Shown: positions 33,624-57,186 of the stretch, piece by piece
Position numbering within the stretch: the first letter of the stretch is position 1
Layout: each line of letters opens with the position of its first letter
NCBI RefSeq assembly: GCF_022647885.1
Contig: NZ_JALCLM010000001.1
Location: 1 to 64,000, forward strand
Reading direction: 5' to 3'
Length of the DNA: 64,000 nucleotides
Source: Bifidobacterium sp.
Lineage (GTDB): Bacteria; Actinomycetota; Actinomycetes; Actinomycetales; Bifidobacteriaceae
The notes under the pieces: model-generated
Told to the model about the DNA's origin: nothing
Databases searched by the model: none
Seen by the model: only the letters and a program-made list of their open reading frames with translations
Program-made: the position numbers and the translations under genes

Positions 33624-33656
33624 GACCGCACCCTCATCCCTGGATAGCTTTATATA

Positions 33657-33699
33657 GCATACAGACGATCTGCTACTACATAGCAGATCGTCTGTATGC
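33657..33699. terminator. Strong terminator after GH2 beta-mannosidase
   Basis: GCATACAGACGATCTGCTA pairs perfectly over 19 bp with its complement across CTACA. It ends the importer/mannosidase operon before the LacI gene. Confidence 0.75.
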
Positions 33700-33719
33700 T
33701 TGCGCTCTACATCTATAAG

Positions 33720-36392: not shown

Positions 36393-36453
36393 CAAGACTC
36401 CTTTGTATGATGGCGGAATCGTATACGACTCAATCTTGGATTGCTGAAAATGC

Positions 36454-37350: not shown

Positions 37351-37355
37351 TTCTC

Positions 37356-38402: not shown

Positions 38403-38471
38403 TTCTTCACCCTTCCGAGTCATTTGACATGCTGCTGTTAACAAATTTTCCACAATGGCTCAATTAACATT

Positions 38472-38519
38472 GCAGGTGCCGAGCTCACATCAGACAAGGC
38501 CTAATAAGCGGACACCTGC
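38472..38519 (-). terminator. Hairpin between binding protein and permease genes
   Basis: GCAGGTG (38472-38478) pairs with CACCTGC (38513-38519). There is a loop of 34 nt and no clear U-run. The position parallels the hairpins after the other two binding-protein genes. Confidence 0.4.
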
Positions 38520-38542
38520 AAAACCGATTTATCAGTCATTCA

Positions 38543-39937: not shown

Positions 39938-40085
39938 TGTCTTAATCCCCTCATACCTTGTATTGCCTCATTGAAAAAACAATGTATGTCGAAGCACGTG
40001 CAACCGTTTTCCATTCGATATTGAATGATGTTGCACAACCCCTTAGCCTGCTGCTTAGTTAGCCCTTGCTAGCAAACTCATATAT

Positions 40086-40114
40086 AGATTACAATCACAA
40101 AATCCATATGTCAA
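40086..40114 (-). promoter_or_regulatory. Promoter of mannoside importer operon
   Basis: Minus strand: TTGACA (40109-40114), 17-nt spacer, TAATCT (40086-40091). The -35 is shared with the LacI operator at 40111-40122. Confidence 0.65.
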
Positions 40115-40122
40115 CCGGTTAA
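40111..40122. promoter_or_regulatory. LacI-type operator
   Basis: TCAACCGGTTAA, centred on CCGG, overlaps the -35 of the importer promoter. It matches the fructan-locus site TCAACCGATTAA in 11 of 12 bases. Confidence 0.65.
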
Positions 40123-40265
40123 GTAAATTTCAGAAACTAAACTCTGTCAGGTAATGTAATTATCTGATGATTATCAATGAAATTATCCATTAATACTGCC
40201 ATTTACGCGATATTGTCAGATTTTCTATTCTTCAAAATTGCTCTAATTGTCCCTAGCTATTTTAC

Positions 40266-41096
40266 TTAATCGGTTGCGTTCTGATCACGATATTGTCTGG
40301 GAGACAAGCCTATTACTGAACTAAACTGCGTAGAGAAATAATGCGCATCAGCATACCGCAATCTAGAAGCAATTTCTTGGATTCTCATTCCTGTATTATT
40401 TAGCAACTCTGTAGCAAGTTGGATTCTTTGTGAGACGTAATAGTGGTATGGAGATTCTCCATAGGCGCGAGTAAATATTCTCGAAATTTGAGAAATTGAT
40501 AAACCGATTTCTTTTGAAACCACTCCAAGGTTGATGTTGTCTTCAACTTTACGGTCCAGCATGTCTTTAATTATCCCTGCATAGCGATTTTGTGATGACG
40601 ATAAGTGCTCGTCAAGATGCCGTTGAGCAAGTTGCGCAAAAATATCATGGATAATCAGTGAGGCTTTGCGCTCAATATCTTGAGCTTGTGGATCGCTGCT
40701 GTGTTCGCACAACTCAAGAAGACGCTCAAAGAGAGGATATAGAGGTACCTGCTTAAAGAGAATTGATTCACCTAAGTGATACTCACGATACAGAGCATCA
40801 CAAAGCAAACCACTCATATTCACCCAAATTTTTTTATACGGATCGGTTATTGATGAACGATAATCGTGTGCGGCATGCGGCGGCAATATATAGGTATCTC
40901 CACCAACTGGAACAACGTGCTTTTCGCCACAGGTAACATCGCCCTTCCCCTCGATTACAAACTCCATGCAATAAATATCAGAGTTTTCACGCACAATGTG
41001 ATACGACCGATCAGGATAGGTGATACCAGCCATTTGGATACGGAAGCGTTCAGGGCGAGGAAAAACTCCAGGCACGATGTTTACCACATGTTCCAT
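40266..41096 (-). CDS. AraC-family transcriptional regulator
   Basis: A regulator of 276 residues with an N-terminal cupin (ENSDIYCMEFVIEGKGDVTC, ILPPHAAHDYRSS) and a C-terminal double HTH (SKEIGLSISQISRIFTRAYG, then ASRLRYADAHYFSTQF). ATG 41096 follows AGGA. It is divergent from the GH2/TIM-barrel pair, the probable target, and lies next to the importer operon. Confidence 0.87.
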   Translation of the reverse strand: MEHVVNIVPGVFPRPERFRIQMAGITYPDRSYHIVRENSDIYCMEFVIEGKGDVTCGEKHVVPVGGDTYILPPHAAHDYRSSITDPYKKIWVNMSGLLCDALYREYHLGESILFKQVPLYPLFERLLELCEHSSDPQAQDIERKASLIIHDIFAQLAQRHLDEHLSSSQNRYAGIIKDMLDRKVEDNINLGVVSKEIGLSISQISRIFTRAYGESPYHYYVSQRIQLATELLNNTGMRIQEIASRLRYADAHYFSTQFSSVIGLSPRQYRDQNATD

Positions 41097-41229
41097 GCGT
41101 TGAATCCTCACATTTTTGATTAGATAATCGAATTTAATATTCTTTTTTGCGTTGTTTTTATACTATAACGGATTCACGCAGGAAAAATTTCCTCTTTGAT
41201 GTTTGACACAAGGAAGGTGCCATAAACAT

Positions 41230-43017
41230 ATGAATACAGACTTTGCTTACTCCTCAACCGATATTCCACGTCCCGAACACCCAAACCCTCAGTGGAAGCG
41301 CTCCACATGGATGAATCTCAATGGCTCTTGGGATTTCGACTTCGACATGTCAGCAAGCGGCATTGATCAGCACTGGTTCGAATACCACGATTTTTCAAAC
41401 ACCATAACCGTTCCCTTCTGTCCAGAAAGCGCACTGAGCGGGATTGAATTCACAGATTTTATACCCTGCTGCTGGTATCGACGCACTATATCGCTTTCTG
41501 ATTCCCAACTCTCAGGGCGCGTCTTACTGCATTTTGGAGCAGTTGATTATCTTGCACATATCTACATCAATGGCAAAGAATTGGGCAGTCATAAGGGAGG
41601 ATATGCGTCATTTTCACTTGACATCACTGACAGCGTCCAAGCCGGAGACAACGTCATTATTGTCTGTGCACAAGACGATACCCGCGGTCAACAACAACCA
41701 ACTGGAAAGCAGTGCGACCGGTACAGCTCATACTCATGCCTATATACGAGGACCACAGGTATCTGGCAGACCGTCTGGTTGGAGTTTGTTCCCGAAACCC
41801 ATATTGAGCAGGCGAGATACCATACGAATATTCACAATTCGACTATCACCATCGAAGCCAGATTACATGGTGCTGCGACTCTGAGTATTGAAGCCTCTTT
41901 CCAAGGCACACCGTGCGGTTCTGCCACGGTAGTGAGTGAAGGCGGAAGCTGCACGATTACTCTCCCCCTATCCCAAACACATCTGTGGGAACCAGGTGTT
42001 GGCAATCTATACGACATCACACTCACATACGGCGATGATCAAGTCAGCAGCTACGTTGGCTTGCGCGAGATACGGCTAGACGGATACAAATTCCTTATCA
42101 ACGGAAAGTCAGTGTTTCAACGGCTGGTTCTCGACCAGGGCTTCTATCCACAGGGAATATACACTGCTCCAAGCGCCGAAGAGTTAGAACAAGATATCGT
42201 TCTCTCGCAGCAGGCAGGCTTCAATGGTGCTCGGTTACATGAGCGCGTTTTTGAACCCTTATATCTCTATTACTGTGATGTACACGGCTACTTAGCATGG
42301 GGAGAAATGGCAAGTTGGGGCTTTGACATCAGCAAGGAATCGAGCGTGAATATTTTCATTCCTGAATGGTTGCAAGTCATTCAACGTGACGTCAACCATC
42401 CAGCGATCATTGGATGGTGTCCGTTTAATGAAACGTGGGATTTTAATGGGAGACGGCAGGATGATGATGTGCTACGACTGGCATATCAAGTCACCAAAGC
42501 ATATGACCCTGAACGCCCTTGCATCGACACAAGTGGACACTATCATGTCGAAACTGATATTTACGACTTGCACGATTACGAACAGGATGTTGATAATCTT
42601 GCCAAACGTTATGACGATTGGGGATCAGGGGCAGCTCCAGTCCCAGAATTGTATCCCGATCGTCAGCATTGCGAAGGTATTATGCCCTTCTTCATCAGCG
42701 AATACGGTGGCATAAAGTGGGATCCATCTCACGCCGAAGACTCTTCTGCATGGGGATACGGGCAACAAGCGAATAGCGAAGACGAATTTATCACACGATA
42801 TCGGGGACTTACCAATGTATTACTGAGCAACCCGAAGATGTTTGGATTCTGCTATACGCAACTATATGATGTGGAGCAAGAGTGTAACGGAATATATGAC
42901 TATAACCGCAGACCAAAAGTCAATGTAGACGTTATTCGCAACATCAATACAGCTACAGCAGCAATTGAGCAAGGCGACAACGAATCTGCGGCATACCACG
43001 GCGAGAGCGAGGCCTGA
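41230..43017 (+). CDS. GH2 glycoside hydrolase of uncertain specificity
   Basis: A GH2 enzyme of 595 residues with no signal peptide: jelly roll with HIYINGKELGSHKGGYASFS, sandwich domain, and TIM barrel. The acid/base lies in GWCPFNETW (Glu401) and the nucleophile in FFISEYGGIKW (Glu491). It lacks the C-terminal domains of the long beta-mannosidases and resembles short beta-galactosidase/beta-glucuronidase-type members. AAGGAAGG precedes the ATG. It is followed after 5 nt by a TIM-barrel isomerase, suggesting a specialised substrate. Confidence 0.82.
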   Translation: MNTDFAYSSTDIPRPEHPNPQWKRSTWMNLNGSWDFDFDMSASGIDQHWFEYHDFSNTITVPFCPESALSGIEFTDFIPCCWYRRTISLSDSQLSGRVLLHFGAVDYLAHIYINGKELGSHKGGYASFSLDITDSVQAGDNVIIVCAQDDTRGQQQPTGKQCDRYSSYSCLYTRTTGIWQTVWLEFVPETHIEQARYHTNIHNSTITIEARLHGAATLSIEASFQGTPCGSATVVSEGGSCTITLPLSQTHLWEPGVGNLYDITLTYGDDQVSSYVGLREIRLDGYKFLINGKSVFQRLVLDQGFYPQGIYTAPSAEELEQDIVLSQQAGFNGARLHERVFEPLYLYYCDVHGYLAWGEMASWGFDISKESSVNIFIPEWLQVIQRDVNHPAIIGWCPFNETWDFNGRRQDDDVLRLAYQVTKAYDPERPCIDTSGHYHVETDIYDLHDYEQDVDNLAKRYDDWGSGAAPVPELYPDRQHCEGIMPFFISEYGGIKWDPSHAEDSSAWGYGQQANSEDEFITRYRGLTNVLLSNPKMFGFCYTQLYDVEQECNGIYDYNRRPKVNVDVIRNINTATAAIEQGDNESAAYHGESEA

Positions 43018-43022
43018 TCACC

Positions 43023-43847
43023 ATGAGACTCGGCATTGGAACTACGCTTGATCACGACAGCCCACAAGAATGGGCGGATGCTCTAGTTGGCATGGGTTGC
43101 ACTACTGCTGTAAGCCCTTTCGATTGCACAGCACCACAGTCATTGAAACGTGAATACCTTGCACAGGCCAACTCGCATGCCCTTTCAATCGGGGAAGTTG
43201 GCGTTTGGAAAAACGTGATGTCTCCAGACCAGAGCGAGCGCCAGGCGAATCTAGCATACGCTCAGCAACAACTTGCATTAGCCGAAGAAATCGGCGCTCG
43301 CTGCTGTGTCAACATTTCAGGGAACTCGGGTTCTGGTGGCTGGGATCAATACAGTGCAAGCAACTATCTTCCAGAAACCTATGATCGAATTGTTGAAACC
43401 ACACAGAACATTATTGATGCTGTGAATCCACAGCGCACCTCGTATGCGATTGAGTGCATGCCATGGATGGTTCCAGATTCGCCTGAACAATATCTTCAAC
43501 TTATCGCAGACATCAACCGGCCGGCTTTTGCGGTACACCTTGACTATACGAATATGATCAATGGAGTTGAACGGTGGATTGGCAAGAATGCATTTATTGA
43601 GCACTGCTTTAATCTTCTGGGCAGCAAGGTGGTAAGCGTCCACGTAAAGGATGTGCAACTCTCAGCAAATCTGCCAACTTCAATAGTTGAGATACAACCT
43701 GGTAAAGGTGACATCGATTTTAATCTGGTCTTCCGGCAAATTGCCAAGTTATCAGAAGAAACCACAGTGTTTGTTGAGCACCTCCCGAACCGAGATGCCT
43801 ATGCGCAGGCCATGAAATATGTTTATAAGACCCTGAAGTCACTGTAG
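43023..43847 (+). CDS. TIM-barrel sugar isomerase/epimerase (AP endonuclease 2-like)
   Basis: A protein of 274 residues. Metal-ligand-type residues follow the xylose-isomerase-like order: Glu in YAIECMPW, Asp in VHLDYTN, His in VSVHVKD, Glu in VFVEHLPN. The family includes sugar, sugar-phosphate and inosose isomerases, 3-epimerases and 3-keto-sugar processing enzymes. It lies 5 nt after the GH2 gene, so it probably acts on the released sugar. The exact reaction cannot be read from sequence. Confidence 0.8.
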   Translation: MRLGIGTTLDHDSPQEWADALVGMGCTTAVSPFDCTAPQSLKREYLAQANSHALSIGEVGVWKNVMSPDQSERQANLAYAQQQLALAEEIGARCCVNISGNSGSGGWDQYSASNYLPETYDRIVETTQNIIDAVNPQRTSYAIECMPWMVPDSPEQYLQLIADINRPAFAVHLDYTNMINGVERWIGKNAFIEHCFNLLGSKVVSVHVKDVQLSANLPTSIVEIQPGKGDIDFNLVFRQIAKLSEETTVFVEHLPNRDAYAQAMKYVYKTLKSL

Positions 43848-43868
43848 AGTCATTCACCCTGTTGATTT

Positions 43869-43902
43869 CGAGAGTTAGTGGTGTTGACACCACTAACTCT
43901 CG
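43869..43902. terminator. Bidirectional terminator
   Basis: CGAGAGTTAGTGGTG pairs perfectly with CACCACTAACTCTCG around TTGA, between the convergent isomerase and GH26 genes. Confidence 0.8.
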
Positions 43903-43925
43903 TATGTGGCTACCTGATATCCATG

Positions 43926-45044
43926 TCAATCAATCTCATTGTCTCTATACATGTTCGGAATCCTATCCAGAAAACGGATATATCCTTTCGAGAATTCTCT
44001 AAAATCTGCCCCCGTGGCGTCTTGCAATAGCGGAGTTCCATACACATTAGTTTCTTCCTGAGTCATAGAATTGCGCCAAGCTAAGTACCATAGCACTTTG
44101 CGCGTGTACTCATCAGTGCGTGCAGCTCTTTCTAGAAATCCGGTCCACGGATTATATTCCACACCTGCAAGCTTGTTCGGTGTACCAACCTCTGTGAATG
44201 CTGCCACTTTGTTTCGTCCTTCGGCGCATTCGACCAACTTACGCAGCACAGTTTGAAAATCTTTGAAAATCAGCTCAGGTGATTGATGATTATCAAAACG
44301 GCCAATGTCTATATAATCGTCAAGTCCAAAGATATCCACAAAGTCGTCTCCTGGATATCCTCGAAAATATCCCGTGTCAAAATCATCAATAGTAAAACAG
44401 CTTCGATCGGGCGAGTTAGCATACAAGAAATTGTGCACTCCTCGCTTATCGCGAAGATACGACACTATATATTGCCATAACTCAATAAACTGCGCTTCAT
44501 CAGTGTCTACTTGACCATCACGTTTACCGATACACCACCAAAACCAGTCGCCATTATGTTCGTGCAAAGGTCGGAACACCACTGGGATGGTTTGTTCATC
44601 GGCATCGACCAAGCTATGTGCAAAATCTGCAACTCCATCCAGCCATCTGTTGAAATCGCTGAGTTTAAAGCCACCTGGCAAAACAGCCTTAACTGAGTCA
44701 GGGGAGCAATTATTGCCATAGCCACCTCCGGTAACAGGATTTACCGAATGCCAGCTCATAGTGATAACCGCTCCTCTGGAAAAAGCATAAATTATTTGAT
44801 CACGTTGCCTCGAAAAATACTGTTCATCAAAATCAGGCATCCCATATTTCTCAATCCCCCCAAAGTCAAAACCGAATACCGCGGGATATACTCCAGTAGC
44901 TTGTAACACATCTGAGGGCATAGTGGTATCTCTTCTACACGACAGATCATCATGATGACCAAACATCGCAAACTGTCCCTGACTTTTCCGTAAATTCACC
45001 AATAATTGTTGAGTTAGTTCATCAAGGTTGTTGTCGACTGGCAT
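43926..45044 (-). CDS. GH26 beta-mannanase, cytoplasmic
   Basis: A GH26 enzyme of 372 residues, beginning with the family pattern QFAMFGHHDDLSCRR and PAVFGFDFGGIE. The acid/base is Glu162 in FRPLHEHNGDWFWW and the nucleophile Glu285 in AAFTEVG. It lacks both signal peptide and binding modules, so it should act inside the cell on imported beta-1,4-manno-oligosaccharides, probably as an exo-type mannobiohydrolase. ATAGGAG precedes the ATG. It has its own upstream region, separate from the importer operon. Confidence 0.85.
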   Translation of the reverse strand: MPVDNNLDELTQQLLVNLRKSQGQFAMFGHHDDLSCRRDTTMPSDVLQATGVYPAVFGFDFGGIEKYGMPDFDEQYFSRQRDQIIYAFSRGAVITMSWHSVNPVTGGGYGNNCSPDSVKAVLPGGFKLSDFNRWLDGVADFAHSLVDADEQTIPVVFRPLHEHNGDWFWWCIGKRDGQVDTDEAQFIELWQYIVSYLRDKRGVHNFLYANSPDRSCFTIDDFDTGYFRGYPGDDFVDIFGLDDYIDIGRFDNHQSPELIFKDFQTVLRKLVECAEGRNKVAAFTEVGTPNKLAGVEYNPWTGFLERAARTDEYTRKVLWYLAWRNSMTQEETNVYGTPLLQDATGADFREFSKGYIRFLDRIPNMYRDNEID

Positions 45045-45383
45045 TATCGCTCCTATTACTGATACGTGGAAATCTCATCTTCGGTTCTTGGTGATGAGAA
45101 TTTGAAATATTGAAGACTTTCTGCCCCCAAAATCTGCTCTGAAATGGTGACGTGTTTCATTCAAATTCGCTGTCTTATTCTACTCTTGAAAGGTCAGCAA
45201 TTTTCTGATTCTGCTCTATCAACAACGTGGGGCACACGAGTTGAGCTTTACATTATGATTTCCTCGATACAGCTCTACGCGGTAAATATTTGTTGGCTGC
45301 AGCAGAATCAACCAGAGAAATTTGATTGGATATCAACTTAACTCAACGAGCAGATTCTAGCTGGTCTTCGCGGATCTGCATCT
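45045..45383. other. Intergenic, upstream of GH26
   Basis: 339 nt that should hold the GH26 promoter and the end of the BNR transcript. No TTAACCGRTTRA-type operator, obvious terminator or small gene was found by eye. Confidence 0.4.
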
Positions 45384-47075
45384 TTAACTTTCACTGGCAT
45401 AACTTCGGAAGTTCTCGACTCGGTGAAAAGTGATGTAATTACTGTTATGAAAAGAATCTGCGCCATTTATGGCAGTTCTGCTTACCACCAATAAGTCGTC
45501 ATTCTCAATAACAAAACTTGGGTATTGAGCAGCAACGAATGCAGCATCCCCGTTGCTTAAATCAACGATTCTATGCACACTCCTGAATCCTCGTAAATCC
45601 TCAGATACGCTAAGAGACAAAATAGTTCTGGCATTTACATCATCACCAATAATCTCATTGCCAACAGCCCAATACAGCTGCGAGACTGCATCAAAAACGA
45701 CATAGAATTTCGTATTATTCCCACCATTAAACTCAACCACTCCACCGTAATGTAGTTTTTGCAAATCATCATCTACACGCAGCAGCAAAGCCTTGGCGGG
45801 ATTTTTCTGATGCTGCCCAAGTTGCAAACGAAGCATGTCGTACCATGAACCATCAGGACTTCTGAGAACATTGCCTTCAAGCCCTCCGCCGACAATCCCT
45901 GCGTCTTGTTGCAGAGCAGCGCAAGGACTATACAGTTCGCTGAGTTTCCAGTTGCTAGCCACCATCAGGTCATCGGTCACGGCAATTGACAAGATGGCTT
46001 GACGAAAACCCCCTGTTTCCCATGAACCATAGTCAATTGCAGTACAGATGACACCATTCTTTTCGACAACTGGCGTCGGAGCTTTATGCAGACCACCGAC
46101 AGAGCAATGCGCTGAGGCCCTGAATAATGTAATAGGAGCAGACCACGTTTTCCCTTCATCTAGCGATACTCCAAGAAGTAAATCACCGTATTCAGTAGCC
46201 ATGGCTAACATATACAGCTTGCCATTATGAGAGAACAGAGCTCCCCAAAAGCAGGGAAAAATCTCCGTGACATATTGCCACGTTTCGCCGTTATCGGTTG
46301 ACTCAAAGAGAATAGTCAGATTCTGTCCGCCATGCCATTCAAACACGTCCATTGAAACCAATAATTTTCCTGAATCGAGCCTAACAATTGAGGGGCTTGC
46401 AAGAAATCTGCCTGAGAACCTGCACGTCCTATCTTGCGGATGCAGATAATTCACCACAGTCCCAGGGGTATCGCCACATCGACATAATCGAGTATGACTA
46501 GTGCAAGTACCATCTGTTGAGGTTATGCGTATCTCGTAATCATGACCCTCGCTAAGACCTGTGACACGAGCGTATGTCTTGCGTGTCTGTATCTCACCAC
46601 CAGACCCATGCTCGATGTCTCGCCACATCACCTGATAACTCTGATTGGGCTTCATCGCATCCCATGAAGCTCTAAATCCATGATCTTCGGGAATAATCTG
46701 ATGTATATAAATGCGATTATCTACATACTCAGGAATCGGCAGATAATGGGCAAAGTTCCAATTGTTGTTTCCACGCATCAGTGCACGGCTCCTATATATG
46801 GTTTCATCATGCAATACAATAGCTTTCTTGCATTCTTCGCTTGTCACAATCAACAGGGATCGGCTGTCATGGTTATTCATCATGCTTGTGGCATCTGCAG
46901 CAATAATCGCAGAAGAGTCACACGGGCAGGCACTTGAATAGCCGCCTGCACTATCTGCTAGATGAACACCAACAAGCTCAAAACTGCCCAACTCTTCTAC
47001 TTCACAACCATTGTGAAGCATCACTTTCGGTTTCGTATTTCCCTTCATATCAATGCTGAAGTGCACCAAGGACAT
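45384..47075 (-). CDS. BNR/sialidase-fold protein, unclassified hydrolase
   Basis: A protein of 563 residues. An N-terminal part with an Ig/FN3-like domain (about 130-195, FRASWDAMKPNQSYQVMWRD) is followed by a six-bladed propeller with Asp-box motifs ESTDNGETW and SLDEGKTW. The first blade has LASPSIVRLDSGKLLVSMDV instead of the RIP/RLP motif of true sialidases, so the Arg triad is not evident. There is no signal peptide. Position suggests a glycosidase or lyase for a mannoside-linked sugar. Start ATG 47075 lacks a good RBS; ATG 47048 is an alternative. Confidence 0.65.
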   Translation of the reverse strand: MSLVHFSIDMKGNTKPKVMLHNGCEVEELGSFELVGVHLADSAGGYSSACPCDSSAIIAADATSMMNNHDSRSLLIVTSEECKKAIVLHDETIYRSRALMRGNNNWNFAHYLPIPEYVDNRIYIHQIIPEDHGFRASWDAMKPNQSYQVMWRDIEHGSGGEIQTRKTYARVTGLSEGHDYEIRITSTDGTCTSHTRLCRCGDTPGTVVNYLHPQDRTCRFSGRFLASPSIVRLDSGKLLVSMDVFEWHGGQNLTILFESTDNGETWQYVTEIFPCFWGALFSHNGKLYMLAMATEYGDLLLGVSLDEGKTWSAPITLFRASAHCSVGGLHKAPTPVVEKNGVICTAIDYGSWETGGFRQAILSIAVTDDLMVASNWKLSELYSPCAALQQDAGIVGGGLEGNVLRSPDGSWYDMLRLQLGQHQKNPAKALLLRVDDDLQKLHYGGVVEFNGGNNTKFYVVFDAVSQLYWAVGNEIIGDDVNARTILSLSVSEDLRGFRSVHRIVDLSNGDAAFVAAQYPSFVIENDDLLVVSRTAINGADSFHNSNYITFHRVENFRSYASES

Positions 47076-48356: not shown

Positions 48357-49379
48357 CTAATCGGGAAAGGATGTAAGAAGGCGCGGCTCGAAGTTTGGCT
48401 CGCTTTTGATTTGCTCATCTTTCGAAAGCTTCACCGGCAAAGTATACGATAGCCTTGAGAGCTGTTTACCACTCATTTTTTCAACTAGCACATGAACAAT
48501 AGTTTCAGATAATTCCTTATACGGCTGCACTACTGTTGGGAGCTCCGGATATGCAGTTTGATAAATGAACGATCCGTCATAACCGAAAAGAAATAAATCT
48601 TGCGGTATTTGTATACCTCGTTCAAGAGCTTTCTTTTGAAAAGCTAAAGCAACCAAATCAGAGGCAAAGATACCATCAACTTCAGGGTTCTCGTTAAAGA
48701 AGTCATCAGCAGTTTCAAGATATGTTTGAAACTCGAACTGATTGAGTTTGAGCTCGTATGTTAAACAGCGAATACCATTTGCCTTCATCTGCTCGGCAAA
48801 AACCTGATGTCGTTGAGAAGAGGGAGAAAGAACTTTAGAATTTGCAACAAGTTGAACAACATTTTTGCAGTTCCTCTCCATCATCGCCTGAGCAGCGAGT
48901 ATTCCACCTTGTGTGTGATTGGCACTCACAACAGGAATATCATCCGCGAGCCAGCGGTCAAGAGCGACAATGGGAGCATCGATGTCTTTGTAGTTAATAT
49001 CCACCGAGTGACTTCCGATAATTATTCCATCAACTTTATTGCCAATCAGCAAATCGATATATTTTTGCTCTTTAACTGAAGAATGCATCGTATTACATAG
49101 GATCATCCGATAGCCATTCTTATCGAGCTCGTCTTCAATTAATGAGGCCATTTTGGCGAAGAATGGCTGTGTAACATCTGGAATAACCAAACCAACGATA
49201 TTTGTCTTATTGCTATACAAGCTACGTGCTATCTGGTTCGGCCGGTAATGGAGAAAATCAATGGCCTGTTGAATGTTGTCACGCGTCTGTTGAGATATAT
49301 AACCTCGATTATTGAGGTAACGCGAAACGGTGTTCTTAGAAACCTTCGCGAGTTCTGCAACATCTGTTATGGTGGCCAT
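48357..49379 (-). CDS. LacI-family transcriptional regulator
   Basis: A regulator of 340 residues. The HTH is TITDVAELAKVSKNTVSRYL with NNRGYISQQT, as in sucrose/fructan repressors; the hinge is RPNQIARSLYSNKT. ATG 49379 follows GAAGGA. It lies just downstream of the GH32/ABC operon, its likely target through the sites at 54470 and 54571. It may also control itself through the inverted repeat at 49424-49464. Confidence 0.9.
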   Translation of the reverse strand: MATITDVAELAKVSKNTVSRYLNNRGYISQQTRDNIQQAIDFLHYRPNQIARSLYSNKTNIVGLVIPDVTQPFFAKMASLIEDELDKNGYRMILCNTMHSSVKEQKYIDLLIGNKVDGIIIGSHSVDINYKDIDAPIVALDRWLADDIPVVSANHTQGGILAAQAMMERNCKNVVQLVANSKVLSPSSQRHQVFAEQMKANGIRCLTYELKLNQFEFQTYLETADDFFNENPEVDGIFASDLVALAFQKKALERGIQIPQDLFLFGYDGSFIYQTAYPELPTVVQPYKELSETIVHVLVEKMSGKQLSRLSYTLPVKLSKDEQIKSEPNFEPRLLTSFPD

Positions 49380-49423
49380 CACACATTCCTTCGCAGTGTC
49401 AAGACAAATCAGTGCGGTAAAGC

Positions 49424-49555: not shown

Positions 49556-51046
49556 TTATTCCCCGCGAGGCTCTTGCATTCCAAAACTGAGAACATGCTT
49601 CAGCACTGCTTCTCCCCCAATAGCCTTGATTTCGATTCTATTCTGCGATGAAGGCGCAAAAATATTCAGCGAATGAACGTTTGTGAACTCATCGATAAAT
49701 ATCTCTAACGAACTCTGATCCGAATACATATGAACATCTAACTGATGTTTACCGAACACATTAAGAGGACTTTTTGAAATTCCTTGGCTCCATCCATCGG
49801 CATTATTCCTATCGACCAGTACTAAACCGTGTGCCAAATCAACAGTACAAGTAGTTTGTTTGCCCTCACCTTTTCTGAGTGACAGCTCAATTGAGGATGC
49901 TCGAGTCCGGAGCATGTCAATCACCAATGACATTTCAAACGAGACACCGTCACCCGCTTGAATGTCTACCACTTGATTCTGCGTAACATGCAACTCGGAG
50001 ACCGAACGCCTATCACCTCTCAGACTTTGCAGTTCACTCACTGGAACGAAACTCAATCTCCCGTCATCGCGAATCTCTATTTCTCTGGGGACACCAAACG
50101 AACCACACCAACCTTCTTGATATGTTGGACCCCAATCCTTCCAGTCCTTCATCCACTGCCACTCATTAGCCCAACCGACCATGATTCTACGGTTGTCTTG
50201 AGCTAAAAAGGTTTGTGGGGCATAAAAATCTAGGCCCCAATCTATTTCATCATTTGTATGGCTCACGAACTTTCCTGTGGTGTAGTCAAAATCACCAACA
50301 AAATACACAACTTTTCTCTCCCCAGCCCCGATTGGAGAACATAGCAAAACCCACTTCGTGCCAAGTTGGAAGAAATCTGGGCACTCCCACATATTGCCCC
50401 ATTCTCCCCTAGACTCGAACAAAACATTCTTATACTCCCAGTGCAGCAAATCCCGAGAGCAATATAACAATGCCTGAGCATGGCCTTCACGCTGTGCGCC
50501 ACACACTAGGTAATAAGTGCCCTCATGCTCCCACACTTTAGGATCCCTAAAGCAGTCCTGAGGGACATCACTTGGTGGCACAATTACAGGATTGCCAGCA
50601 TACTTCGTAAAATGAATACCATCATCACTCATTGCAACATTTTGTGTTTGACGTAACCCTGTACCTTGATTAGAACAACCTGTATACAGCAGATAGAGCT
50701 TCCCATCTTTTTCAATTGCAGAACCTGAAAAACATCCACCCTGCTCATGGTCATCGTAGAATTCGCTCGGCGCTAAAGCTACAGGCAGGTACTTCCAATG
50801 GACAAGATCCGTACTGACTGCATGTCCCCAATACATTTTGCCCCAAAACCCGCTGAAGGGATTGAATTGGAAGAAGAGATGATATTCTCCTCTAAAATAA
50901 ATCAATCCATTCGGGTCGTTAATCCATCCGCATTGACCCATGAAATGGTAACGCTGACGCATACCTGCTTGAGCGACCGTGGTTACGTGCCGGTCAATGA
51001 ACTTTTGTGCCTCTTCGATGGAGGCATGCATGAGGTTTTGAGACAT
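49556..51046 (-). CDS. GH32 beta-fructofuranosidase
   Basis: A GH32 enzyme of 496 residues: nucleophile Asp44 in WINDPNG, transition-state stabiliser Asp168 in CFRDPKV, acid/base Glu221 in MWECPDFF. A five-bladed propeller is followed by a C-terminal beta sandwich (FEMSLVIDMLRTR, LEIFIDEF). There is no signal peptide. It should release fructose from imported short fructans, sucrose or inulobiose. It is the last gene of the importer operon, 31 nt after the permease, and lies opposite the GH91 gene. Confidence 0.9.
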   Translation of the reverse strand: MSQNLMHASIEEAQKFIDRHVTTVAQAGMRQRYHFMGQCGWINDPNGLIYFRGEYHLFFQFNPFSGFWGKMYWGHAVSTDLVHWKYLPVALAPSEFYDDHEQGGCFSGSAIEKDGKLYLLYTGCSNQGTGLRQTQNVAMSDDGIHFTKYAGNPVIVPPSDVPQDCFRDPKVWEHEGTYYLVCGAQREGHAQALLYCSRDLLHWEYKNVLFESRGEWGNMWECPDFFQLGTKWVLLCSPIGAGERKVVYFVGDFDYTTGKFVSHTNDEIDWGLDFYAPQTFLAQDNRRIMVGWANEWQWMKDWKDWGPTYQEGWCGSFGVPREIEIRDDGRLSFVPVSELQSLRGDRRSVSELHVTQNQVVDIQAGDGVSFEMSLVIDMLRTRASSIELSLRKGEGKQTTCTVDLAHGLVLVDRNNADGWSQGISKSPLNVFGKHQLDVHMYSDQSSLEIFIDEFTNVHSLNIFAPSSQNRIEIKAIGGEAVLKHVLSFGMQEPRGE

Positions 51047-51077
51047 AAGAGTTCCCTCTCTTGTTGATTCTTTCTAA

Positions 51078-51932
51078 CTATCCCTTAACGGATCCCGCAA
51101 GCATTCCGGATACTAAATACCGTTGAAGGAAGAAGGAAATAATTATTACGGGGAAGGAGAAGAGTACCGCGGCACCCGTCATTGGACCAAGATCAAGATT
51201 ATATGAAGTCAAGAACTCAGAGAGTGCGACTGGAACCGTTTTGGCATCGCTACTAGTAAGCAACAGCGCTACAAGGAAGTCGTTCCAAGCCAAGAGGAAT
51301 GTGAAAATTCCTGTAGAAATCAAACTTGGAGTAACCACGGGAAGGATGACTCGAATGAACGATTTTAGTGGCCCTGCACCATCCACAGCAGCAGCTTCAT
51401 CAAGTTCAACTGGGACTTCCTTAAAGAAACTAATCATCATCCACAGCACAAAAGGCATATTGACACCCGCATAAACAATACATAGCACCGGCAGATAGTC
51501 ATAAAATCCAAATTGCTGCACCAAACCGTATATTGGAACTACGATGCTCGACATAGGAATCATTTTTAGACACAGCACCAACACCAACAAAAAATTGCTA
51601 AATCGTGAGACTGCAGTACGTGATATTGCATATGAAGCCAAGGACCCAAGAAGTAGACAAATTATGGTACTAACCAAGGCTGCAATAAAACTGTTTGCAA
51701 AATTTGTGCCAATATCTGACGTTTGGAAGACGCTGCGATAATTCTCTAACGACCATCTCTCAGGAAAGAACGTTGGATTTACCGATATGACCTCGTTCGA
51801 TGGTTTAAACGAGGAAAACAGCATATACAAATATGGAAAAACGAAAGCTAGCAGAAATATTCCTGCAAGCACATACATTGCTATCATCCAGAAATTGTCG
51901 CTCTTATTACGACCAAACCGTTCGTGGAACAT
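51078..51932 (-). CDS. Sugar ABC transporter permease (MalG type)
   Basis: A permease of 284 residues with six helices and EAA loop LDEAAAVDGAGPLKSFIRVI, then LP. ATG 51932 lies 4 nt after the stop of the previous permease, and the frame upstream lacks a better start. It forms the fructan-type importer with its partner. Confidence 0.88.
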   Translation of the reverse strand: MFHERFGRNKSDNFWMIAMYVLAGIFLLAFVFPYLYMLFSSFKPSNEVISVNPTFFPERWSLENYRSVFQTSDIGTNFANSFIAALVSTIICLLLGSLASYAISRTAVSRFSNFLLVLVLCLKMIPMSSIVVPIYGLVQQFGFYDYLPVLCIVYAGVNMPFVLWMMISFFKEVPVELDEAAAVDGAGPLKSFIRVILPVVTPSLISTGIFTFLLAWNDFLVALLLTSSDAKTVPVALSEFLTSYNLDLGPMTGAAVLFSFPVIIISFFLQRYLVSGMLAGSVKG

Positions 51933-51936
51933 AATA

Positions 51937-52875
51937 CTAATCCCTATTCTGCTTGTGCTGCGCAAAAAGCGTGAGACCTATTAACACAATGATGAAAATA
52001 ACAGCCATAGCACTGGCGTATCCCACATCCCCATAGCGCTGAAGCATTTTATAAATCTGGACACTCAATAATTCAGACGATCCTTGTGGACCCCCCTGAG
52101 TCATTGCCCAGATAATATCGAAAGTTCTAGCAGCATCAATAACTCTGATCACTAATGTGCTAAATAGCACGCCCTTGATACTGGGCAGAATTATTTTAGT
52201 GATTATTTGCCACTTATTCGCACCTTCGACAGCAGCAGATTCATACAGGCTTTCTGGAATCGACTGAATTCCGGCGAGAAACATGAGCATCATGAATGGT
52301 GTGGTTAGCCAGACGTCCGCGATAATGCACGCTAATAACGAGAACCTAGAATCTGCAAGCCACAAAATACTATCTGTTGATTGGATGATGCCTACTTTGA
52401 CAAGCAATACATTCACGATTCCAAATTGGCTGCTCAACATGAATTTCCAGACAAGACCAGCCACAAGAGGAGCAATCATCAGTGGGGAAAGCAAAAAGGT
52501 CCGAATCGCCTTAAATCCTCGGTACTTATTTGTAAGAATTACTGCAAGCACAAGACCTAAAACAGTCTCTAAACCTACGGCAACCACGACATATACCAAG
52601 GTATGGAGTGAACCTGATTGAAATTGTTGCGAAGTAAACGCTTTTATATAATTCGCAAACCCAATAAATGTACGCCCTTCATAGTTATCCCCGACAGCGA
52701 AGAAGCTATCATAAACCAATTTGAGCAAAGGAAATAAGAGAAAAGCAACCATGAATAAACCGGCAGGTAGGAAGAAAAAACCTAGAGTTTTCCTTTCTAT
52801 CGTTGAGCTCAGCATCCGTCGTTTCTTGGGAACAGTATGAGAAAAATTATCTTTCCTGTGTAGATTTATAATCAT
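51937..52875 (-). CDS. Sugar ABC transporter permease (MalF type)
   Basis: A permease of 312 residues with six helices, a FLLSPLMIAPLVAGLVWKFM segment and EAA loop YESAAVEGANKWQIITKIIL. AAGGAA precedes the ATG. It is separated from the binding-protein gene by a 75-nt spacer with a strong hairpin. Confidence 0.88.
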   Translation of the reverse strand: MIINLHRKDNFSHTVPKKRRMLSSTIERKTLGFFFLPAGLFMVAFLLFPLLKLVYDSFFAVGDNYEGRTFIGFANYIKAFTSQQFQSGSLHTLVYVVVAVGLETVLGLVLAVILTNKYRGFKAIRTFLLSPLMIAPLVAGLVWKFMLSSQFGIVNVLLVKVGIIQSTDSILWLADSRFSLLACIIADVWLTTPFMMLMFLAGIQSIPESLYESAAVEGANKWQIITKIILPSIKGVLFSTLVIRVIDAARTFDIIWAMTQGGPQGSSELLSVQIYKMLQRYGDVGYASAMAVIFIIVLIGLTLFAQHKQNRD

Positions 52876-52898
52876 GTTTATTCCTTGAAAAAATCAAT

Positions 52899-52942
52899 AA
52901 GGGGCACAACAATTTCAGATCACTGATTAGTGAGTGCCCCTT
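52899..52942 (-). terminator. Attenuator-like hairpin after binding-protein gene
   Basis: AAGGGGCAC (52899-52907) pairs with GTGCCCCTT (52934-52942); an inner TCACT/AGTGA stem extends it. No U-run follows. It likely lowers downstream expression or protects the upstream mRNA. Confidence 0.6.
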
Positions 52943-52950
52943 AAGAATTG

Positions 52951-54222
52951 CTAACCCAACAAATCTTCTATCGACTGTTGTGCTTTGCTCAATTCATCCT
53001 TTGTATTCGCGCCCTTAAGCGAATTCTGAACAAGTGGAGACAGAATTTCAGTTTCTATTTCAGTCCACATTTTCGTTGCAGGACGATTCTGCGTTTGTTT
53101 CGCAGCTAGTGTTGTTTCCAATGCTTTTACATGAGCATATTTAGCATTGTCTTCATACTTTGCAAAAACACTCTTTCTCGCAGCAACACCAAGTGTCTCC
53201 ATATACCCTTCGTTCTTCCCATACATAAACTCCAAGTATTTCTTAGCAATATCCTGCTTTTTTGAATTCTTCATTACTACTTCATACCAAGGTCCAGGAA
53301 TGGCCCCAACCCCCGCTGATCCTGCAATCATTGGTGCAGCGCCAACCTTATCGCCTAGTTCTTCTGCGGAAGACAGGTAGAAGTGAGCCCAAGTTAGCTG
53401 CATAGCAATTTTTCCTTGATTGAACATATTTGAAATTTCGCTTGTGCCCAATGAGAGGTAGTCAGCTGGTATTGACCCATCTTTAACAAGATCGCGCATG
53501 TAATCAAGTGCTTGTGAGTATGCTTTATCACCGAGGTTGGGCTTGTTACCCTTACCCAATACCAGATTGTTTGCGCCAGCTTGCGTTGCAAATTCGAGCC
53601 AACCTGTTACGGAATCAGCACCCGTCTGACCGATGATGGCAGTCCCATACATATCGTCTTTTGTAAAGAATTTTGCTGTATCCCGATACTCTGCCCAAGT
53701 CGTTGGAACTTTAAGATCATAGCCGTATTGCTCTTTAAAAGCTGTTTTATTAGCTTCATTTTCAAAGAGATCTTTTCTATAGAGAAGAATTTTGGCATTA
53801 GTCCAAGTCGGTATTCCTAATAATTTCCCGTCGATAGTGCCACCCTCTTTTAGCTGTGGCATAAGATCACTTTCTTCACTGCTTGAAAGCACACCGTCAA
53901 CCGATGAGAGACCTTTAGCGAGAGCAGGGAACCACAACACGTCAATGACGGCTAAGTCATGAGTTGCCTTGCTTGAGTCTGTTTCTGCCTTCAACTTATC
54001 GTACAAACCCGAGTAAGGAGAAGTGTCGATGTTAATTTTGTAGCCTGTTTCTTTTTCGAACTCTGCAGCGTTACTACGAGCAACTTTTTCTGCAGGGCCG
54101 CCGCCCTCTACGAGAATACTAAGAGTTTTGCTTTCTGCACTCGAACTACCACACGCAGCGAGCGAAAGCACAGCAGCAGCTGTAACAACCACTGATATCA
54201 GTGTTTGCATCTTATGTTTCAT
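52951..54222 (-). CDS. Sugar ABC transporter substrate-binding lipoprotein
   Basis: A family 1 binding protein of 423 residues. ATG 54222 (MKHKMQTLISVVVTAAAVLS) follows GAAAGG and gives a proper lipoprotein signal with LAAC lipobox; an open frame continues upstream to 54399 but would spoil it. It contains EKETGYKINIDTSPYSGLYD and KKYLEFMYGKNEGYMETLG. It is the first gene of the importer/GH32 operon and divergent from GH91. No ATPase gene accompanies it. Confidence 0.88.
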   Translation of the reverse strand: MKHKMQTLISVVVTAAAVLSLAACGSSSAESKTLSILVEGGGPAEKVARSNAAEFEKETGYKINIDTSPYSGLYDKLKAETDSSKATHDLAVIDVLWFPALAKGLSSVDGVLSSSEESDLMPQLKEGGTIDGKLLGIPTWTNAKILLYRKDLFENEANKTAFKEQYGYDLKVPTTWAEYRDTAKFFTKDDMYGTAIIGQTGADSVTGWLEFATQAGANNLVLGKGNKPNLGDKAYSQALDYMRDLVKDGSIPADYLSLGTSEISNMFNQGKIAMQLTWAHFYLSSAEELGDKVGAAPMIAGSAGVGAIPGPWYEVVMKNSKKQDIAKKYLEFMYGKNEGYMETLGVAARKSVFAKYEDNAKYAHVKALETTLAAKQTQNRPATKMWTEIETEILSPLVQNSLKGANTKDELSKAQQSIEDLLG

Positions 54223-54444
54223 CTTTGAACCTTTCTCAGTAACAAGAAACGATGCGTATTGAGTTGTATGTTGCGACTTGAGTGTCTGCTCTATGCACAG
54301 CTTGAATGGCGAACAAATGTTTTTAAGACTCACGACTATGTGTAGTTTTGTAAAACTCTTTTCTCTTACACTGCCACAAATCTGCACTCTCTTGTTCATC
54401 TCACTGCATTGTCGAGATGAACGAACCCAGCAACAACATGGTCA

Positions 54445-54473
54445 AGAATATCCCAGTTTAAAAAATATGTCAA
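54445..54473 (-). promoter_or_regulatory. Promoter of fructan importer operon
   Basis: Minus strand: TTGACA (54468-54473), 17-nt spacer, TATTCT (54445-54450), overlapped by the operator at 54470. The same -35/operator layout occurs at 40086-40122. Confidence 0.65.
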
Positions 54474-54481
54474 CCGATTAA
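54470..54481. promoter_or_regulatory. LacI-type operator
   Basis: TCAACCGATTAA overlaps the importer -35. Confidence 0.65.
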
Positions 54482-54570
54482 CATATTACATAATCCCGAA
54501 TGATATTTCTTTGCTACAACAGTAATATTTCTTTTATTGGTATATAATATCTCTGTGATATGCATACATG

Positions 54571-54582
54571 TTCATCGGTTAA
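54571..54582. promoter_or_regulatory. LacI-type operator, GH91 side
   Basis: TTCATCGGTTAA is the reverse-oriented relative of the importer site, about 100 bp away and just before a -10-like TATACT (54596-54601). Paired sites could allow DNA looping between two repressor dimers. The remaining bases of 54223-54698 are AT-rich and hold no gene. Confidence 0.5.
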
Positions 54583-54698
54583 TCTAAATAGCTCTTATAC
54601 TTTGCTTCATCGCAGAAACATAGTAAAGAATCAATAGAGCTGGCGAATCCCGGTAAACATGTAATGCCGAGCAAGACATCAGCATCAAGGAGGACGAG

Positions 54699-56072
54699 AT
54701 GGTCTCAGAAAATTACTATGACATAACCCAATGGCCCATAGGAAACCCACACGTTGATATTGGAGAAGTAATCAACAGCATTATTGCAGATGTCAAGAAT
54801 CACCAAGCAGACGTTTCATCCGGTGAAGACGGCAAACCTGGTGCAGTTATTGTTATACCCCCAGGAGACTATCATCTGAGGACCCAAGTGCTCATCGATA
54901 TTAGCTACCTAACAATACGAGGTTCGGGGCACGGGTTTATTTCATCAAGCATACGATTCAATACTCCTGACAATGAGCTAGCAAATTTCCATGATATCTG
55001 GCCAGGAGGAAGTCGGATTATCAACAATCTAGATAATTCTTCATTAAACAACGAAGCATCAGGTGCTGCTTTCCGAGTTGCACGTGAAGGAAGCCCAAGA
55101 ATTAGTTCAGTTGAATTCTCAAACTTTTGTATAGACGGCGTTCATTTCACTAATAACGGCCAAAATGCTCTTGATCCAGAAAACTCGTACCTCAATGCTA
55201 AAACAGGAATCTATATCGAGAGCGCTCAAGACTCTTTCCGTATCGTTGGTATGGGTTTTGTTTATCTTGAGCATGCGATCACAATCTACAATGCTGATGC
55301 ACTCAGTATTCACGACAATTTCATAGCTGAATGCAATAACTGTATTGAATTACGAGAATCAGGACAAGCCTCAAAAATAACCGACAATCTCATCGGCGCT
55401 GGGTACCGAGGGTACTCTATATATGCACAGAACTTTGGGGGCCTATTAATCACTTCAAACAATATATTCCCTAGAGGAGCAAGCACCATCTATTTTAGTG
55501 GCGTTGCAAGATCATCCGTCACAGGAAATCGCTTCCACTCTTTTTACCCAGGAGCTATTGAACTCAGCGACGGAAGCTCAGAAAATCTTATCAGCTCAAA
55601 TCATATCTACCGAGCCTTCGAACCTTGGCTCCCCATGAAGTTATATAACAACGGGAAAGATGATGATTATGGACTTATCCGAATACACGGCAGCAACAAC
55701 TCCATCATTGCCAATCATATTTCAGAAATTATTGACACTGAAAATATCCATCCGATAGGAATCCAACCTGTAATCATTAGAATTTCATCAGGAGGCTCAA
55801 ACTACGTTGCCACTAACCACATTGTTGCCATGACGGAACATGCTCAAACTCAGTCGGATGCCACGTCGCTGCCAGATAACACGGATTCCTGCTTCTCAAC
55901 TCAAGTTGAAGCCGTTCTTTCGAACCGATTTGCCGAGAGTATTGCAACTATCAACATTTTGATAGATTCAGATTCCACACACAATATTGTTCTCGATAGT
56001 GCAACGGAAAACCAGGCCATCCTTGACAGAAAACACAACGTTTTTCGCGCAATACCCTCTTTTGAAGAATAG
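54699..56072 (+). CDS. GH91 difructose-anhydride hydrolase / inulin fructotransferase family
   Basis: A right-handed beta-helix protein of 457 residues that matches inulin fructotransferases: DITQWPIGNPHVDIGEVINS, PGAVIVIPPGDYHLRTQVLI, the signature GMGFVYLEHAITIYNADALS and DNFIAECNNCIEL. Asp206 and Glu217, 11 residues apart, correspond to the family's catalytic pair. Secreted members convert inulin to difructose anhydride. This one has no signal peptide, like the intracellular DFA III hydrolases that open the anhydride to inulobiose. AGGAGG precedes the ATG. It faces the importer/GH32 operon across a shared operator region. Hydrolase versus transferase is inferred. Confidence 0.85.
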   Translation: MVSENYYDITQWPIGNPHVDIGEVINSIIADVKNHQADVSSGEDGKPGAVIVIPPGDYHLRTQVLIDISYLTIRGSGHGFISSSIRFNTPDNELANFHDIWPGGSRIINNLDNSSLNNEASGAAFRVAREGSPRISSVEFSNFCIDGVHFTNNGQNALDPENSYLNAKTGIYIESAQDSFRIVGMGFVYLEHAITIYNADALSIHDNFIAECNNCIELRESGQASKITDNLIGAGYRGYSIYAQNFGGLLITSNNIFPRGASTIYFSGVARSSVTGNRFHSFYPGAIELSDGSSENLISSNHIYRAFEPWLPMKLYNNGKDDDYGLIRIHGSNNSIIANHISEIIDTENIHPIGIQPVIIRISSGGSNYVATNHIVAMTEHAQTQSDATSLPDNTDSCFSTQVEAVLSNRFAESIATINILIDSDSTHNIVLDSATENQAILDRKHNVFRAIPSFEE

Positions 56073-56376
56073 AGTGCCCACACAGCTGAAATTACAATCT
56101 TAACTAAAGTCTCATGAATTCGTGTGCGCAAGGTGTTGCAAATATCCATATGCGCACACAGACATCCCAATACTGCACTGTTACGAAAGGTAAGGAAAAT
56201 GCTTTTCAGGTTGCGCCCAACTCACATCCTAAAGCCTCGGTGCCAACACGCTGAGGCTCATAATCCGCTGTCATAGCAGCAACATAACACAGCCGAGTCA
56301 CATTGAAACATATATGCATGTATATTCCGCTCCTCACACAATCACTCTTGAGCTGACAACCCAATCTGCCTATAGA
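56073..56376. other. Intergenic after GH91
   Basis: A possible weak terminator for GH91 is formed by AGCCTC (56232-56237) and GAGGCT (56252-56257) with an inner GTG/CAC. No gene was seen. Confidence 0.35.
56348..56376 (+). promoter_or_regulatory. Promoter of yaaA
   Basis: TTGAGC (56348-56353), 17-nt spacer, TATAGA (56371-56376). Transcription from here would start at or after ATG 56377, which favours GTG 56386 on a leaderless mRNA. Confidence 0.45.
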
Positions 56377-56385
56377 ATGAACGGC

Positions 56386-57186
56386 GTGCGTATTTTACTT
56401 CCACCTTCCGAAGGCAAAACGTTCCCAAGCTCTGGCCCTGTGCTTAATCTTCAGCAGCTGTCATACCCTGAACTCACTGCTGCACGACGGCAAGTGTTAG
56501 AAGCCCTGATTGAAGTATCCGCCAGGGATGACGCCGCAGAAATCCTCAAAGTAGGCAAACGCATCATGCCAGAGGTCGTAGCCCAACGCGACATCATCGA
56601 TATGCCCTGCGCCCCAGCGCGGGAAATATACACCGGCGTGCTCTATCAGGCAGCACAACTACATAGCAATGACGACGTGATGATTTTCTCAGGCTTATTT
56701 GGCGTCACTACAGCCGAAGATCTTATCCCCGCCTACCGTCTGTCGATGAATACCTCATTACCGAGGATCGGTAGTCTCAAAACATTCTGGCGACGTGAAT
56801 TAGCAAAGGCAGGCTTCAATCGAACGGATACTAACAAGCAGCACTTCGACATCGCCAGTAAGCATATTGACAGCGACACAATAACGACGGTTGATATGCG
56901 TTCTGGTGGGTATCAGGTCACCGCTACATGGGGGCAATGGTGGGATCTACGCGTGCTGGATTCACGCGGCAAAGTCATCACTCATGCTGCCAAACACTAT
57001 CGGGGATTACTGACGCGAGCATTACTCGATGCTGAGCACATAACGCAGCAAGAACGCAACAGCACACTTACCAGAACTGACAAGCACAAAACGAATATCG
57101 ATGTGGCACAAGTCGCCCACACACTCGGTCATGTCGAGATTACACACAACGGTTCTCGCCATCACATCACCTTGAGACTCGACTAA
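56386..57186 (+). CDS. yaaA: YaaA-family peroxide-stress protein
   Basis: A protein of 266 residues of the YaaA/DUF328 family with RILLPPSEGKT at the start, LYQAAQLHSNDDVMIFSGLF-GV and YRLSMNTSLP, and a late MRSGGY and KHYRGLLTRALL segment. E. coli YaaA lowers free intracellular iron under peroxide stress; this branch is typical of Actinobacteria. GTG 56386 is chosen from the promoter position and family start; ATG 56377 is the alternative. The tail after ITQQERNS is longer than in E. coli. Confidence 0.8.
   Translation: MRILLPPSEGKTFPSSGPVLNLQQLSYPELTAARRQVLEALIEVSARDDAAEILKVGKRIMPEVVAQRDIIDMPCAPAREIYTGVLYQAAQLHSNDDVMIFSGLFGVTTAEDLIPAYRLSMNTSLPRIGSLKTFWRRELAKAGFNRTDTNKQHFDIASKHIDSDTITTVDMRSGGYQVTATWGQWWDLRVLDSRGKVITHAAKHYRGLLTRALLDAEHITQQERNSTLTRTDKHKTNIDVAQVAHTLGHVEITHNGSRHHITLRLD

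Follow-up and report, generated by a model that had tools for sequence, protein, structure and literature searches.

What an apparently cytoplasmic enzyme of glycoside hydrolase family GH91 does beside an operon for sugar import is the question raised by positions 49556–56072 of a 64,000-nucleotide stretch of Bifidobacterium sp. DNA (NCBI RefSeq assembly GCF_022647885.1, contig NZ_JALCLM010000001.1, positions 1 to 64,000; hereafter the window). An earlier note on this DNA had proposed that the genes form a closed pathway for difructose anhydride (DFA), consisting of import, ring opening and cleavage. The cassette is very probably a scavenging pathway of this kind for DFA III, ending in fructose, and the basis for this reading consists of the gene set, homology, a lid and catalytic residues in the GH91 protein, operator-like sites, and the co-occurrence of importer and enzyme. 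In the proposed scheme, extracellular DFA III would be captured by a solute-binding lipoprotein (SBP) and taken up through two permeases, with energy supplied by a shared ATPase of the MsiK type whose gene lies elsewhere in the genome. The cytoplasmic GH91 protein would open the ring reversibly to yield inulobiose, and a GH32 enzyme would split inulobiose into two fructoses, pulling the reversible GH91 step forward, while a LacI-family protein would repress both divergent promoters via two operators until its ligand appears. The substrate, the direction of flow, the binding and ligand of LacI and the use of MsiK are predicted parts of the scheme. Its import, ring-opening and cleavage steps are supported by phylogeny, by the lid and by the association of the importer with GH91, from which enzyme activity and ligand binding are predicted.

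The open reading frames of the window are ordered LacI < GH32 < permease < permease < SBP, with GH91 diverging from SBP on the other strand (54699–56072, +), and the leftward arm from SBP to LacI spans 54222–48357 (−). All of the genes described in the earlier note were found where it had placed them, including the LacI gene downstream of the operon beyond GH32, which falls just outside the range 49556–56072. Their families were confirmed by Pfam and, for GH91, GH32 and SBP, also by sequence search of the PDB. The SBP frame has an alternative in-frame ATG upstream at 54399, although a ribosome-binding site and a lipobox, both recognized by eye, favor the start at 54222. Signal peptides were judged by hydropathy only, using 15-residue windows that start at residues 1–35. 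By this measure the GH91 N-terminus contains no strongly hydrophobic stretch (best Kyte-Doolittle mean 0.93, versus 2.5 for the strongly hydrophobic SBP N-terminus), as had been claimed, and the GH32 N-terminus likewise lacks one.

Comparison with solved and assayed relatives favors placement of the GH91 protein on the DFA-III hydrolase (DFA-IIIase) side of its family, as opposed to that of the inulin fructotransferases (IFTs). Its best solved match in the PDB search was the Arthrobacter DFA-IIIase 5zks (AcDFA-IIIase; 589 bits), and fructotransferase chains scored lower (9j4i, 351 bits; 2inu, 337 bits; 8hsn, 265 bits). Alignments gave 60% identity to AcDFA-IIIase and 61% to its counterpart in Blautia parvula NBRC 113351 (locus L072), the strain whose DFA-IIIase was assayed (PMC11538131), versus 49–50% to two DFA-III-forming IFTs. 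These 60–61% values fall below the >65% reported between the Blautia enzyme and DFA-IIIases, for which identity to DFA-III-forming IFTs was 43–49% (PMC11538131). A GH91 tree of 85 rows was built from the window protein, 80 scan loci, locus L102 and three PDB references; the 80 loci were the best 80 of the 216 relatives found for this protein, and the sample therefore leans to its side. In this tree, obtained by a quick search with no bootstrap, a long branch splits the two IFTs from the other 83 rows with a Shimodaira-Hasegawa-like approximate likelihood ratio test (SH-aLRT) value of 100. On the choice between hydrolase and IFT, which the earlier note had left to phylogeny, the tree favors the hydrolases. 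A phylum-wide sample searched for further IFTs yielded GH91 in only 2 of 396 genomes, the window's own and one with a protein at 61% identity.

The catalytic pair of the window protein is Asp200/Glu211, which is invariant in all 85 rows of the alignment and is the counterpart of the catalytic D207/E218 of A. aurescens. The catalytic residues of BsIFT, D233/E244 (PMC4640833), correspond to chain positions 193/204 of 2inu, which align with Asp200/Glu211; the offset of 40 between the two numberings was verified manually on F290-P291-R292, found at chain positions 250–252. The earlier assertion that the signature residues are intact holds for this active site and for the GH32 triad described below, but not for the GH91 numbering that accompanied it, Asp206/Glu217. 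Glu217 is likewise invariant (85/85 rows), but Asp206 is Asp in 78 rows, Asn in 6 and His in AcDFA-IIIase, and this replacement in a solved DFA-IIIase led to rejection of Asp206/Glu217 as the catalytic pair.

An extra lid is reported to enable AcDFA-IIIase to hydrolyze DFA III, and its removal to convert the enzyme to an IFT (PMC11538131, citing Yu et al., 2018). The window protein has the lid, with Cys398 at the place of Cys387 of AcDFA-IIIase, and the corresponding column is occupied in all 83 non-IFT rows (Cys in 79, Ala in 3, Thr in 1). Because Thr or Ala replaces the cysteine in four of these 83 DFA-IIIase-like rows (L024, L064, L067 and L082), the cysteine itself may not be strictly required. 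That IFTs lack the lid is best supported by three comparisons. IFT chains in the PDB are 404 and 410 residues long, versus 445 for DFA-IIIase, and the alignment of 9j4i across the lid site is close to that of 5zky, a DFA-IIIase chain shortened to 420 residues. A complete GH91 frame on a plasmid of Arthrobacter sp. StoSoilB13 (L107), which was compared by alignment and left out of the tree, reaches its stop without a lid and is 53–54% identical to IFTs, 51% to AcDFA-IIIase and 46% to the window protein. On this soil Arthrobacter plasmid a DFA-IIIase-like GH91 (81% identical to AcDFA-IIIase) lies ~4 kb from the lid-less IFT-like GH91. The next gene after the latter encodes a GH32-like protein in which a signal peptide was recognized by eye, whereas upstream of the IFT-like frame neither an ATG start nor a signal peptide was seen.

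In each of two bacterial families, the importer is found largely together with GH91. Intact GH91 is present in 6 of 189 Bifidobacteriaceae genomes, the window's own counted. With an E-value limit of 1e-50, the SBP is present in these same six and was not found in the 183 genomes without intact GH91. Among 250 Lachnospiraceae genomes, GH91 occurs in 6, the Blautia SBP in 6, and both in 5. Fisher tests of co-occurrence, which treat genomes as independent of kinship, gave 2e-11 and 5e-9. Across the 80 loci, SBP and both permeases were found inside the GH91 flanks (up to 10 kb) in 59, of which 49 had a GH32 match too. The operon contains no ATPase gene. Two OB_MalK proteins are encoded in the genome, one by an isolated MsiK-like gene near 260 kb, the other, PotA-like, by a gene followed by a permease (names assigned by eye). 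An enterobacterial version of the cassette, from Rahnella (L023, 5732–12342), has LacI-like and GH32 matches and, in place of the ABC (ATP-binding cassette) importer, a GPH-like carrier; a probable sugar kinase follows GH91 directly (carrier and kinase both recognized by eye). That a carrier of another type accompanies similar enzymes fits a role in disaccharide uptake. A further Bifidobacteriaceae genome, in which the SBP was not found, contains a GH91 remnant that looks like a decayed copy (L103, G083:C4:12000-31300, ~9270–9795); it matches residues 73–108 and 306–454 in the genome scan, and residues 73–108 with 310–455 immediately after them in the locus comparison.

Regulation of the cassette is suggested by two operator-like sites between the divergent genes, as the earlier note had indicated. 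The 15-mer TYAACCGATKAACAT occurs exactly at 54470 and 54568. When up to two mismatches are allowed it has 4 matches in the window versus 0.43 expected, a number reached in none of 100 shuffles. These two sites are the only exact matches in the genome, a single contig of 2.34 Mb, where two more with one mismatch lie elsewhere and a reversed control pattern has none. Because the 15-mer was drawn from the two sites themselves, independent support must come from recurrence in relatives. A 19-base form of operator A, drawn from the six family cassettes, matches 18 of 108 loci; judged by their origin, these 18 come from the same six genomes, with three stretches per genome. The counterpart of operator B was picked by pattern in three of the five relatives (L014, L079 and L102) and by eye in the other two (L017 and L024). 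Operator A overlaps the TTGACA −35 box (54473–54468) of a promoter-like site read towards SBP, whose −10 box lies at 54450–54445. Beyond the family, Paenibacillus sanguinis (L071) has a LacI protein near GH91 that is 53% identical to the window LacI, and a perfect palindrome with the same CAACCG core 216 bases before its SBP match. Five other loci were examined for the core, which had no match in L010 and L055, only unsymmetrical ones in L028 and L051, and a partly symmetrical one ~1 kb before the SBP match in L072. LacI is likely to control the divergent promoters through these putative operators.

Table 1. Features of the cassette, with positions in the window and the basis of each assignment
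Feature	Position	Strand	Basis or remark
GH91 protein of 457 aa, assigned as DFA-IIIase and presumed cytoplasmic; catalytic Asp200/Glu211; Cys398 in C-terminal lid	54699..56072	+	PDB match, identity, tree
Solute-binding lipoprotein (SBP), 423 aa, presumed DFA-III binder	52951..54222	-	PF01547/PF13416; co-occurrence with GH91
ABC permease, MalF type	51937..52875	-	PF00528; 78–83% identity in other 5 family cassettes
ABC permease, MalG type, start codon uncertain	51078..51965	-	PF00528; 83–88% identity in other 5 family cassettes
GH32 beta-fructofuranosidase without signal peptide, presumed inulobiose splitter	49556..51046	-	PF00251/PF08244; scrB_fam
LacI-family repressor, presumed local regulator	48357..49382	-	PF00356/PF00532; 62–70% identity in other 5 family cassettes
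Putative operator A, ATATGTCAACCGATTAACATAT	54465..54486		Overlaps TTGACA −35 box read towards SBP; kept in 6/6 family cassettes as 19-base form
Putative operator B, second motif copy, GH91 side	54567..54588		Motif matches; like sites in relatives

The GH32 protein scores barely above the scrB_fam cut-off (358.6 versus 356.4 bits). Its catalytic triad is intact as Asp44/Asp168/Glu221, positions that we take to be the triad on the basis of familiar motifs. The protein is 57% identical to the GH32 encoded near GH91 in B. parvula NBRC 113351. In the Blautia study, the second step was carried out with BBDE_1523, a GH32 of B. dentium, and not with the cluster's own enzyme (PMC11538131); cleavage of inulobiose by the cluster-encoded GH32 is presumed for the Blautia cluster and for the window alike.

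A second GH91 was sought in the window genome and not found, which leaves no recognizable IFT of this family. DFA III therefore presumably comes from outside, and the bifidobacterium would presumably scavenge what other organisms or the heating of sugars produce.

Other functions for these genes must be weighed against DFA III scavenging. The operon might import inulobiose or short inulin-type fructo-oligosaccharides, leaving GH91 as an accessory that clears DFA III formed inside the cell. Fructo-oligosaccharides are possible substrates because the Blautia enzyme works on nystose (GF3), GF4 and inulin, in both directions (PMC11538131); for its reversible step between DFA III and inulobiose a ratio of 60:40 is reported. 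GH32 alone would, moreover, be enough for short fructans. Against this alternative, failure to find the SBP at E 1e-50 in 183 of 189 genomes, all without intact GH91, is unexpected for a general fructan importer, and one operator-like site lies on GH91's own side of the divergent promoter; this alternative is regarded as unlikely. A somewhat poorer prospect is that a GH91 of shifted specificity acts on another cyclic difructose or caramel sugar, such as DFA I or the diheterolevulosans. Long end branches (0.45–0.71) in four of the six bifidobacterial GH91 rows of the 85-row tree are compatible with such a shift, and the DFA I cluster of B. dentium also includes LacI, GH32 and ABC transporter genes (PMC8605356). 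DFA III is nevertheless favored over DFA I, because the assayed Blautia relative, BpDFA-IIIase, is reported to be inactive on DFA I (PMC11538131). PF11175, the Pfam family of the GH172 enzyme that hydrolyzes DFA I in B. dentium, was unmatched in the window genome, although the same search gave no match in any of 14 control genomes either. Least probable is that the GH91 protein is itself an IFT that makes DFA III. IFTs have the same fold and active site, and PF18835 is named for them in Pfam, but the window protein has the lid, lacks a signal peptide by hydropathy, stands apart from the two IFTs in the tree and is encoded beside an importer, and the assignment was rejected.

Several observations weigh against DFA III scavenging itself. 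The bifidobacterial GH91 proteins branch outside the clade that contains both assayed hydrolases, and the IFT side of the tree consists of two rows, both DFA-III-forming, with no DFA-I-forming IFT. The lid column is empty in both IFT rows, yet their sequences stop soon after the lid site, so that the empty column alone proves little. The activity of the assayed Blautia enzyme on nystose, GF4 and inulin, cited above, also counts here. Co-occurrence is imperfect in Lachnospiraceae, where one genome (G625) has GH91 without SBP and another (G736) has a 40% identical SBP without GH91, and the SBP searches scored the best 9 or 7 candidates per genome. The full transporter was missing at the thresholds used in 21 of the 80 loci, including all ten titled Rahnella, Klebsiella, Serratia, Pectobacterium, Raoultella or Entomohabitans. 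Three of the six family cassettes have no GH32 between permease and LacI; two of them, L014 and L017, carry a different GH32 (29% and 26% identity) after GH91, and none was found in the 21-kb locus L079. Finally, the promoter is weak evidence because promoter-like sites are no commoner in the scan than in shuffles (15 versus 18.0).

GH91 is more variable among the family cassettes than the transporter (61–66% versus 75–88% identity). Replacement of GH91 was considered and not adopted, because LacI (62–70%) and the GH32 of two cassettes (63–64%) vary as widely. GH91 relatives were also found in 85 of 72,556 records of a plasmid collection, 70 of them from Rhizobium; among the matches listed, most carry no annotation beyond NosD domain-containing protein.

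The surroundings of the cassette differ in composition from the start of the window, with a GC content of 42–46% in a block at ~30–58 kb versus 50–57% over the first 24 kb. An adjoining carbohydrate cluster (32595–47075) belongs to the same low-GC block and encodes LacI, GH2-like proteins, an ABC importer, an AraC-like regulator, a GH26-like protein and a BNR-repeat protein, most of them named by eye from translations, with weak Pfam matches for the BNR protein. YaaA (56314–57186) was sought in 27 genomes of the genus and matched in 8, two of them weakly, and four 19.5-kb stretches around YaaA contained no other window gene from 20 kb on (E 1e-15, >40% identity). No empty site could be named from this comparison, and the idea of a datable insertion was dropped. 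A single in-frame TAG breaks the YaaA-like match in two genomes of the genus (L118 and L119).

One of the six family cassettes (L079) lies in a record titled Bifidobacterium asteroides ESL0199. Bees are hosts of the B. asteroides group in general. No publication linking GH91 with B. asteroides or bees was found in searches whose coverage omitted most subscription journals, nor was an earlier account of a DFA-III binding protein or operator in Bifidobacteriaceae. It seems somewhat better than an even bet that some bifidobacteria, including one of the same genus as B. asteroides ESL0199, have an importer, a hydrolase and a repressor with its own operator that are dedicated to DFA III, and no enzyme that makes DFA III. 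If true, this would correct the published view of bifidobacteria as lacking DFA-IIIase and would put forward candidates for a DFA-III binding protein and an operator, both of which the cassette offers in testable form. Only a minority of the family, 6 of the 189 species genomes, carries both enzyme and importer. DFA III is sold commercially and has been credited with health benefits, and caramel contains DFAs (PMC8605356).

The pathway itself, from import through GH91 to inulobiose and through GH32 to fructose, was published together with its gene cluster for Blautia in 2024 (PMC11538131), and the novelty implied for it in the earlier note is not supported. DFA III use in the human gut was assigned mainly to Blautia, and GH91 DFA-IIIase is described as "not conserved" in Bifidobacterium (PMC11538131). 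Surveys of the carbohydrate-active enzymes (CAZymes) of B. pseudocatenulatum and B. adolescentis already list the GH91 family, in passages that do not describe a pathway (PMC8557894, PMC12345859). The DFA I operon of B. dentium (BBDE_2040) also combines LacI, GH32, an ABC importer and a ring opener with no secretion signal (PMC8605356); its ring opener, however, is a GH172 retaining alpha-fructofuranosidase reported to be inactive on DFA III (PMC8605356, PMC11538131), whereas that of the window is GH91. The Arthrobacter DFA-IIIase (5zks; PMC4640833) has the lid and the catalytic pair in common with the window GH91, at the 60% identity given above, but the pathway described for Arthrobacter includes an extracellular IFT (PMC8605356), and in the window genome a second GH91 was not found. 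The closest parallel is with B. parvula NBRC 113351 and other Blautia, which likewise have GH91 (61%), GH32 and an ABC importer, and for which GH91 was assayed and the same pathway proposed (PMC11538131). The window, too, has a GH91 DFA-IIIase, GH32 and an ABC transporter together, the composition of the Blautia-type cluster. It differs in belonging to another host family and in its layout: the Blautia locus has importer, GH32 and GH91 matches on one strand and its best LacI match ~5.5 kb beyond GH91, whereas in the window GH91 is divergent, two operator-like sites lie between the arms, and LacI follows GH32. Added here to a mechanism that is unchanged are a worked-out case to set against the "not conserved" statement, the operator, and the tight link between SBP and enzyme.

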